The notes under the pieces: generated by a model | Told to the model about the DNA's origin: nothing | The model's input: only the letters and a program-made list of their open reading frames with translations | The model's database searches: none | Translations under genes and position numbers: made by a program | Assembly (NCBI RefSeq): GCF_024609325.1 | Contig: NZ_JANHMQ010000002.1 | Location: forward strand, 744,001 to 808,000 | Length of the DNA: 64,000 nt | Direction of reading: 5' to 3' | Source of the DNA: Geothrix fuzhouensis | GTDB lineage: Bacteria; Acidobacteriota; Holophagae; Holophagales; Holophagaceae | Shown here: one piece after another, positions 1-62,009 of the stretch | How the letters are laid out: each line of letters starts with the position of its first letter | Numbering within the stretch: position 1 is the first letter of the stretch

Positions 1-326
1 GGAAGGCACGGAGAAAAGATCTTTTCGCCACCGATTTCGGTGATTGCGGTGATGGCGCTCTGGAGGCTCCTCGCATGGGCCGGCCGAAGGCTGCTTCCGG
101 CCTCGCCGGAAGTCATGGGGGCGCCAGGGCCGCGCACCCCCAAGAGGGCTCGGCCCCGGCGCCCCCATGGAGCCCATGCTGCGCTGGGCAGTGCCCATCC
201 TTTTCATCACTGAAATCACCGAAATCGGTGGTAAAAAAGGCTTTTACCGGAGTTTGCCACTGCCCACACCCAGCCTCTGTGGCCCTTCTCCGTGTTTCCC
301 TCCGTGCCTCCGTGGTGGTTTTTCCT
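1..326. repeat. Outer inverted repeat with CACGGAG-type arms, enclosing the structured element
   Basis: This gene-free stretch precedes the 3' end of the pseudouridine synthase gene. The left arm (about 3-17) reads AAGGCACGGAGAAAA. The right arm (about 279-323) carries several CTCCGTG words, the complement of CACGGAG. Between the arms lies the 205-base structured element at 27-231. The left arm may continue outside the window, so its full extent is unknown. No start codon with a ribosome site and no protein-like reading frame was seen in 1-344. Confidence 0.5.
27..231. repeat. Structured intergenic element, copy 1 (terminal inverted repeats, multi-hairpin)
   Basis: The ends form a 27-base terminal inverted repeat (about 28-54 with 205-231) matching at 24 of 27 positions. 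Inside, GCATGGG (73-79) can pair with CCCATGC (173-179). Within that stem sit two hairpins: CTTCCGGC/GCCGGAAG (94-101 with 105-112, three-base loop) and a perfect 12-bp stem, 114-125 with 158-169. A second copy at 43141-43360 keeps all these parts. It could be a MITE-like element, a structured RNA or a REP-type sequence; no transposase is nearby and no target-site duplication was identified. Confidence 0.75.
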
Positions 327-42952: not shown

Positions 42953-42980
42953 TCGAAGGCTCCAAGGAAGGAAACGACTC

Positions 42981-43140
42981 ACGCAGAGGGTCGCAGAGGA
43001 AACGGAGGTTCGTGAAGGAAAGAGAAAGAGGTTCATCGCGTCCTTCCGGAGAAGGGTGAGCGTGGTTCACGGCAAGGTGGCCGCCGTCCCGGAAGCAACC
43101 ACTACCCCTCACCCTTCCGTCAAAGAACAAGATGTTTTTC
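42981..43140. other. Gene-free spacer with CGCAGAG words, flanking the structured element
   Basis: Together with 43361-43479 this fills the longest gene-free stretch (42953-43479) around copy 2 of the structured element. ACGCAGAGGGTCGCAGAGG (about 42981-42999) is tiled like the arms of the other inverted repeats. A weak partner, CCTCTGCAATCTCCGCGAGG, lies at about 43438-43457, so the structured element may again be nested in an outer inverted repeat. No protein-like frame is present. Confidence 0.4.
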
Positions 43141-43360
43141 GCCACCGATTACAGTGATTCCGCTGATGGCACCTCGGATGTTTCTCGCATGGGCCGGCCG
43201 AAGGCCGCTTCCGGCTCCGCCGGAAGTCATTGGGGGGCGCCAGGGTCGCGCATCCCCAGGAGGACACGCCCCTGACGCCCCCCATGGAGCCCATGCTGCC
43301 TCGGGACAGGGCCCATCTTTTTCATCACTCTTTTATCACTGCAATCACTGAAATCGGTGG
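43141..43360. repeat. Structured intergenic element, copy 2
   Basis: This copy aligns along its whole length with 27-231. Its terminal inverted repeats read CCACCGATTACAGTGATT and, on the other strand at the far end, CCACCGATTTCAGTGATT. It keeps GCATGGG/CCCATGC (43187-43193 with 43290-43296) and CTTCCGGC/GCCGGAAG with a different loop. In the third hairpin GGGGGGCG (43232-43239) pairs with CGCCCCCC (43276-43283). That stem has six G-C pairs where copy 1 has five, changed on both arms together. Confidence 0.75.
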
Positions 43361-43479
43361 CAATGACAGTCGGTTCATCACGCCAATTCGCCAAGAGCCA
43401 GAAAAGACCGCACGGCTTTTCTCGGCGTACCCCTATTCCCTCTGCAATCTCCGCGAGGGTTTCCGCTCCGGAGTTCGCT

Positions 43480-54702: not shown

Positions 54703-54778
54703 AACCGCAGATGACGCAGATTTCGCAGATGAAAACAAAGAAGTGGTATCTGCGGCCATCTGCGACATCTGCGGTTTC
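54703..54778. repeat. Word-tiled inverted repeat, CGCAGAT type
   Basis: The left arm contains three CGCAGAT words about ten bases apart (54706, 54715 and 54724 onward) and the right arm three ATCTGCG words (54748-54774). The arms pair imperfectly around a short A-rich loop. It lies between the metallo-hydrolase start and the 3' end of the E1 gene. Confidence 0.75.
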
Positions 54779-60897: not shown

Positions 60898-61058
60898 GCT
60901 GGTCACAGAAGTCACGGAAGAGAGCAGGAATGCACGGAAAAGGGCATGGGCGGCCGCTCCGAAAGGGCGGGCTGCACCCCGGAGGGCACTGGCGCAGCGT
61001 GGAGCACGAACCCTTCCGTGTCCTCCCTTCCATTCCGTGCCTTCCGTGACCAGCAAGG
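60898..61058. repeat. Word-tiled inverted repeat, CACGGAA type
   Basis: The left arm (about 60898-60942) with GCTGGTCAC, TCACGGAAG and GCACGGAAAAGGG faces a right arm (about 61008-61058) with CCCTTCCGTG, ATTCCGTGCCTTCCGTG and GACCAGC. The GC-rich centre begins GCATGGGCGGCCG, similar to the start of the inner part of the structured element. It lies between the SDR and inositol monophosphatase genes. Confidence 0.7.
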
Positions 61059-61909: not shown

Positions 61910-62009
61910 GTAAGCGGAGAAAGACTGAAGAACGGAGGAAAGCGGAGGAACAGCTATCCAGAAATCTTTTCTCCGCTTTCCTCAGCCGCTCCGCGATCCT
62001 CCGCTTATG
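61910..62009. repeat. Word-tiled inverted repeat, AAGCGGAG type
   Basis: TAAGCGGAG (61911-61919) and GGAAAGCGGAGG (about 61937-61948) in the left arm face CTCCGCTTTCC and CCTCCGCTTA (about 61970-62007) in the right arm, with further CGGAG/CTCCG words between. It lies between two convergent genes, where a terminator would be expected. Confidence 0.75.

Follow-up and report, generated by a model that had tools for sequence, protein, structure and literature searches.

A 64,000-nucleotide stretch of the Geothrix fuzhouensis genome (hereafter the window) carries two copies of a structured intergenic element, which comparison with related genomes places in a genuine many-copy palindrome family of the genus Geothrix, one that is apparently mobile. 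The core of the element is modular, being set within inverted repeats of differing 9–10 bp words, and the protein-coding members of the same class of palindromes carry one gene, GxxExxY (PF13366/TIGR04256), whose product has a predicted PD-(D/E)XK nuclease fold. On balance, we regard the element as probably a non-autonomous mobile DNA palindrome of this GxxExxY-associated class, with arms made of inverted short tandem words, and we extend the same qualified confidence to the mode of movement proposed below.

Structure and copies of the element

The preliminary description, made from the window alone, had reported two copies of a structured element with near-identical terminal inverted repeats. 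Both copies are present and extend a few bases beyond the limits first given on both sides (Table 1), and 25 of 27 bases pair in the copy 1 repeat, compared to the 24 first counted. With its outer ends included, the inverted repeat of copy 1 spans 41 nt (14–54/205–245) with 83% match, and an alignment of copies 1 and 2 is identical in 179 of 228 columns. Each copy begins with an A/T-rich end AAAAGNCTTTT and a terminal repeat of ~9-bp words GCCACCGATTTCAGTGATTGCGGTGAT; the core follows, set off by a spacer on either side, and the copy closes with the inverted terminal repeat and the mirrored end. The core has a three-way-junction-like fold, in which the stem GCATGGGC/GCCCATGC (73–80/172–179 in copy 1) encloses a GGCC-type short hairpin, an 8-bp hairpin CTTCCGGC/GCCGGAAG (94–101/105–112), and a long hairpin CATGGGGG...CCCCCATG (114–135/148–169). 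The inner stem enclosing hairpins, the hairpin that keeps its eight pairs while its loop alone varies (CTC in copy 1, TCC in copy 2), and the change from five to six G-C pairs made on both arms of the long hairpin together (GGGGG/CCCCC in copy 1 vs GGGGGG/CCCCCC in copy 2) were all confirmed as first described. When the cores were folded as single-stranded DNA, all four strands gave z values of −6.2 to −7.9, with 0 of 200 dinucleotide shuffles as low. Full copies carry GCCACC...GGTGGC ends and are 185–291 bp in length (median 210).

Table 1 Features of the two element copies and of the palindromes around them (window positions)
Feature	Position	Strand	Remarks
Copy 1 of element	14..245	+	~210 bp between the terminal inverted repeat ends, 232 bp including AAAAGNCTTTT ends
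Copy 1 left terminal inverted repeat	28..54	+	~9 bp words CACCGATTT CGGTGATTG CGGTGATGG; 25/27 paired
Copy 1 right terminal inverted repeat	205..231	+	Pairs with 28..54
Copy 1 core	73..179	+	Closing stem 73-80/172-179; encloses hairpins 81-93, 94-112, 114-169
Copy 2 of element	43141..43361	+	
Copy 2 left terminal inverted repeat	43141..43167	+	23/27 paired
Copy 2 right terminal inverted repeat	43335..43361	+	Pairs with 43141..43167
Copy 2 core	43187..43296	+	
Outer word palindrome of copy 1, left arm	1..16	+	Part inside window; arm begins ~14 bases before window; local score 33
Outer word palindrome of copy 1, right arm	286..317	+	Words CACGGAGG
Older word palindrome around copy 2, left arm	42972..43023	+	Same place in G008 without element
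Older word palindrome around copy 2, right arm	43433..43466	+	Same place in G008 without element

In the G. fuzhouensis assembly (97% complete, 6 contigs; genome-wide counts are from search tools), blastn returned some 30 copies, partial ones included, and in all of them the orientation of the core relative to the ends is constant. A search with R1, a covariance model based on 45 cores, returned 33 core copies, so that the element is not a product of chance. R1 cores were present in 30 of the 41 sampled Geothrix genomes and in 0 of the 109 sampled Acidobacteriota outside Geothrix. A search of plasmid sequences for the element gave no match, and a terminal-repeat 17-mer found 11 scattered matches in viral contigs, a number that could be due to chance. 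The earlier statement that no known family fits this layout agrees with an Rfam 15 search of the window, in which one tRNA and nothing else scored above the gathering score.

Some copies form same-orientation runs (C1:1430469-1433102 and C5:193362-208963), with spacings of 0.4–2 kb within the clusters. Two contigs end inside element copies (G000:C4:218356-218455 and G000:C5:208888-208963), and the element thus probably breaks the assembly. Three copies (L002, L003, and L005) have flanks in common past the element limits (CCCTTCCGTCAAAGAACAAGATCTTTTC ... TTCATCACRCCAT), indicating that the element is also carried inside a larger repeat.

Empty sites and nested palindromes

The genes on either side of copy 1, named by inspection of the DNA, are short-chain-dehydrogenase-like and RsuA-like. 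The gap between this gene pair is ~330 bp in the window and at most ~20 bp in the Geothrix genomes G007, G015, G042, G018, G006, and G041, and in G008 the site holds a different word palindrome. The site of copy 2 is empty in G015, G007, G041, G018, and G042 and is taken up by other word palindromes in G008 and G009. Since related species do not have the two insertions at the same sites, the DNA appears to move.

The palindrome found at the copy 2 site in G008 matches, in an alignment with L199, the outer arms around copy 2, with the element missing. Outer arms are also found around copy 1, with a local score of 33 compared to 23 for the best of 500 shuffles. The presence of outer arms at both sites indicates that both window copies are nested in older palindromes, and this nesting, like the tie to GxxExxY genes described below, goes beyond what the preliminary description contained. 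Among 67 distinct cores with flanks, 53 lay inside inverted repeats scoring above every shuffle. The arm sequences vary around the core and consist mostly of tandem words (CACCGAT, CGCAGATG, CACAGAG, CACGGAG, CGCCAAGA, and others), and because differing arms surround one core, the core can be said to ride in several kinds of word palindrome.

Other palindromes were observed elsewhere in the window. The word palindrome at 54703–54776, AACCGCAGATGACGCAGAT / ATCTGCGACATCTGCGGTT, has no gene and belongs to the class that forms the arms around GxxExxY genes, and that at 61911–62007 is made of GCGGAGGAAA words, a word type that also flanks the GxxExxY gene at C1:1469654-1470001 of G. fuzhouensis. 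The region 60898–61054 consists of a CACGGAA inverted word repeat around ~110 bp with GC-rich inverted repeats and may represent a related element whose core is different.

GxxExxY genes within inverted word repeats

The G. fuzhouensis genome has six GxxExxY (PF13366) genes, all six inside inverted word repeats. One of these, at C5:195806-196171, is bracketed by two copies of the element; its product is a member of the GxxExxY family (PF13366/TIGR04256, E 6.7e-38), which is named for a motif. Across 41 Geothrix genomes, close relatives of this protein (83–84% identity) occur only in G006, G009, and G042, the next full-length match being at 68%. In each of these three genomes the gene lies between two cores, within ~250 bp, and the closest GxxExxY subtype is thus bracketed by the element in 4 of the 4 genomes that carry it. 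The composite of element, GxxExxY gene, and element lies on opposite sides of one conserved gene region in G. fuzhouensis (L085) and in Geothrix sp. SG200 (L087, G006:C6), a placement which suggests that its three parts changed position together, by movement or by rearrangement.

The number of cores rises with the number of GxxExxY genes when phylogeny is ignored (rho 0.65, p = 0.0005, n = 25 near-complete genomes). In G008, G043, and G047, cores are abundant and the GxxExxY proteins are distant from the element's own type, which counts against GxxExxY as the mover. In addition, while 15 of 23 Geothrix GxxExxY loci score at least 30, the other 8 have no clear inverted repeat by the score used, which also counts against the model.

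More than 500 GxxExxY loci were found when 84,980 species genomes were scanned; 80 of these loci were kept, and 68 of the 80 had usable flanks. These 68 come from Acidobacteriota, Planctomycetota, Deltaproteobacteria, Cyanobacteria, Chloroflexi, an archaeal bin, and others, in a sample that was recruited with one Geothrix protein and over-represents relatives of that query. The inverted-repeat score across the gene had a median of 46.5 at these loci, compared to 24 when flanks were mispaired and 19 when windows were shifted within the same loci, and of the 259 shifted windows none was above threshold; part of this score reflects shared word usage instead of pairing within an element, as the arms of different elements are alike. 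For ordinary genes of the window, the median was 19, and 3 of 48 reached 26. The literature searched, with preprints and most subscription journals outside its scope, held two papers that mention the GxxExxY family but no description of its mobility, of the word repeats, or of the Geothrix repeats, and the pattern of GxxExxY genes in many phyla lying between inverted repeats of 10-base words was not found there.

The S23 four-helix genes (PF05635), a family present in 74 of 149 genomes of the phylum, are also situated within inverted word repeats, as 22 of 26 score at least 26. The two families differ in word length: the period was 9–10 bp in 42 of the 43 GxxExxY arms with a clear period vs 7, 8, or 14 bp in 20 of 21 S23 arms. 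The S23 loci of Acidobacteriota (L283–L312) have mostly 7–8 bp words such as GGCAGTN, GGGATAG, and TAGGCAT, in a system parallel to that of GxxExxY. The latter words agree with the tandem heptamers (GACAGAT) ahead of the open-reading frame in the S23 intervening sequence of Coxiella burnetii (PMC4990558). For GxxExxY, similarity between proteins was correlated with similarity between words, both in the multi-phylum set (Mantel r 0.34, p = 0.001, n = 42) and among Geothrix loci (Mantel r 0.31, p = 0.004, n = 19).

A homologue of the bracketed protein (L087, 121 aa) was modelled with a mean pLDDT of 95. Foldseek placed lambda-type exonucleases, SSO0001, and archaeal Hjc resolvases among the top matches, and realignment of the model gave the best score for SSO0001 (Z 10.3), with Hjc at Z 7.4. 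A profile search of solved structures returned nothing significant. Residues D67, E77, K79, and Q91 are invariant among 56 sequences, and this is the pattern of an active PD-(D/E)XK nuclease, an activity that is predicted for the protein. Hjc cuts four-way junctions, and its size matches that of the GxxExxY protein. The PD-(D/E)XK fold is common to GxxExxY, Cas4/RecB, lambda exonuclease, and Hjc; however, identities are 12–22%, Z scores are moderate, and a fold alone shows no function.

Proposed movement of the palindromes and competing explanations

In the working that we propose, the GxxExxY protein would bind the word arrays, or the cruciform formed by them, and nick there, and host replication or repair would then copy the palindrome to new intergenic sites, often in the middle of an older word palindrome. 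During a hairpin or cruciform stage, one arm could be corrected from the other, so that the arms would stay complementary even as they diverge in sequence. Palindromes that carry no gene, the window copies among them, would depend on protein acting in trans. Recognition, cutting, and copying are inferred, as are the cruciform and arm-correction stages and the role of GxxExxY as the enzyme that moves the element.

The main rival to this explanation casts the GxxExxY and S23 genes as passengers. The palindromes would then be made and spread by the host, through template switching at quasipalindromes or hairpin replication, or by another enzyme, and genes caught between two palindromes would travel along. 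Two unrelated gene families occupy such repeats, and since S23 genes, without a nuclease fold, are found in word repeats as well, the gene could be a passenger. Consistent with this, most copies are gene-free, no target duplication was seen, and simple gene-free word hairpins occupy the same two sites in other species. Against it, word length is specific to each gene family, word sequence tracks protein sequence, and the nuclease residues are invariant, none of which would be required of a passenger. The word length and the protein–word correlation oppose the passenger explanation without settling the question, and we consider it rather unlikely.

We also weighed whether the element is an ordinary MITE, derived by deletion from an insertion sequence and having CGCCACCGATTTCAGTGATT ends recognised by a DDE transposase. 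Like MITEs, the element is short and non-coding, has long terminal inverted repeats, high copy number, and intergenic sites, and is present in some species and absent from the same sites in others. The target-site mapping proposed in the preliminary description was carried out on 36 full copies, but flanking direct repeats measured 3.97 bp, compared to 3.99 bp when flanks were mispaired, and no duplication was visible. Terminal-repeat matches in the 97% complete, 6-contig assembly included no insertion sequence with the same ends; they were full, partial, or core-deleted copies, and one lone match that was read out was core-deleted as well. Furthermore, the terminal sequences around the one core are variable and in several cases unrelated, which one sequence-specific transposase would not explain. 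A MITE origin is accordingly improbable.

The preliminary description had argued from the paired length change that folding is under selection, whether as RNA or as a DNA cruciform. In the 45-core alignment, 94.4% of cells are paired, and in 24 of 40 pairs both partners have changed. The alignment has a covariation score of 0.259, compared to 0.106 after shuffling (0 of 500 shuffles reached 0.259) and no more than 0.065 with partners slid. The covariation is therefore strong, and with the further copies found here and in relatives, it passes the refutation test set in the preliminary description, which asked for more copies and for covariation in their stems. Selection on folding is not its only possible cause, because the same pattern would arise in hairpin DNA if one arm were corrected from the other. 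An RNA made from one strand should tolerate G-U but not A.C. The core alignment contains 45 G.T and 50 A.C mismatches (p = 0.68), and these equal counts show no RNA polarity and favour a DNA palindrome, with the caveat that neutral decay of dead copies also equalises the counts, so that the RNA reading is lowered only. The DNA side of the choice first left open thus gains, and the data favour complementarity upheld by cruciform selection or by one-arm-from-other correction. A structured RNA, acting as a regulator, an attenuator, or a small RNA, that had been duplicated to new sites and whose stems were under selection at the RNA level would account for the strong covariation and the stable folds; however, double transversions (64 cells) and double transitions (68 cells) are equally common, neither strand folds better than the other, the two examined sites are empty in other species, and Rfam gave no match for the element, making this explanation very improbable. 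Strong covariation in a repeat can arise from DNA-level palindrome upkeep, which is a warning for RNA discovery pipelines.

An identity as attC-like cassette recombination sites of an integron-type system was considered for the clusters, whose close spacing and single orientation would suit it, and was dropped on the end sequence, the ends in alignment being GCCACCGAT...ATCGGTGGC and not RYYYAAC...GTTRRRY; as many copies are also single, and two of these, the window copies, have empty sites in relatives, we give it a negligible chance.

The best reading of the palindromes that we propose to be GxxExxY-associated is that they are REPtron-like in layout with a non-homologous nuclease. As in the REP-BIME systems with RAYT (TnpA-REP, PF01797), a small single-gene nuclease lies between palindromes, and many gene-free intergenic copies of the palindrome exist. 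Unlike in those systems, PF01797 gave no match in the G. fuzhouensis genome, while control genomes including E. coli were matched, and the partner is of the PD-(D/E)XK fold and not HUH/Y1. The Geothrix element, at 185–291 bp with a covarying multi-hairpin core, also differs from REPs of 20–40 bp, and its full copies end in GCCACC...GGTGGC instead of the REP tags GTAG or CGTC (PMC3733652). The S23 intervening sequences of 23S rRNA, as in C. burnetii (PMC4990558), resemble the GxxExxY palindromes in having a small open-reading frame in a short inverted-repeat element with tandem words before it; however, they encode a four-helix bundle, not a nuclease, and are sited in rRNA, and PF05635 gave no match in the G. 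fuzhouensis genome, an absence that rests on one model as the controls were also blank.

A wider proposal, which we make tentatively and at somewhat less than even odds, is that the GxxExxY (9–10 bp) and, separately, the S23 (7–8 bp) word palindromes represent a new class of mobile element in many phyla. The ends of such elements would be recognised by periodicity and self-complementarity over fixed sequence, a small PD-(D/E)XK protein of the cruciform-cutting type would drive movement, and the 210-bp element of Geothrix would be a non-autonomous branch with its own conserved three-way-junction core. GxxExxY and S23 are widespread families whose function is not known, and since each is tied to inverted word arrays with a period of its own, that function is directly testable. 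If each protein does bind and cut its own word arrays, the known mobile elements would come to include one that has a single gene and no DDE, HUH, serine, or tyrosine recombinase, and much of the palindromic DNA between the genes of environmental bacteria would gain an origin.
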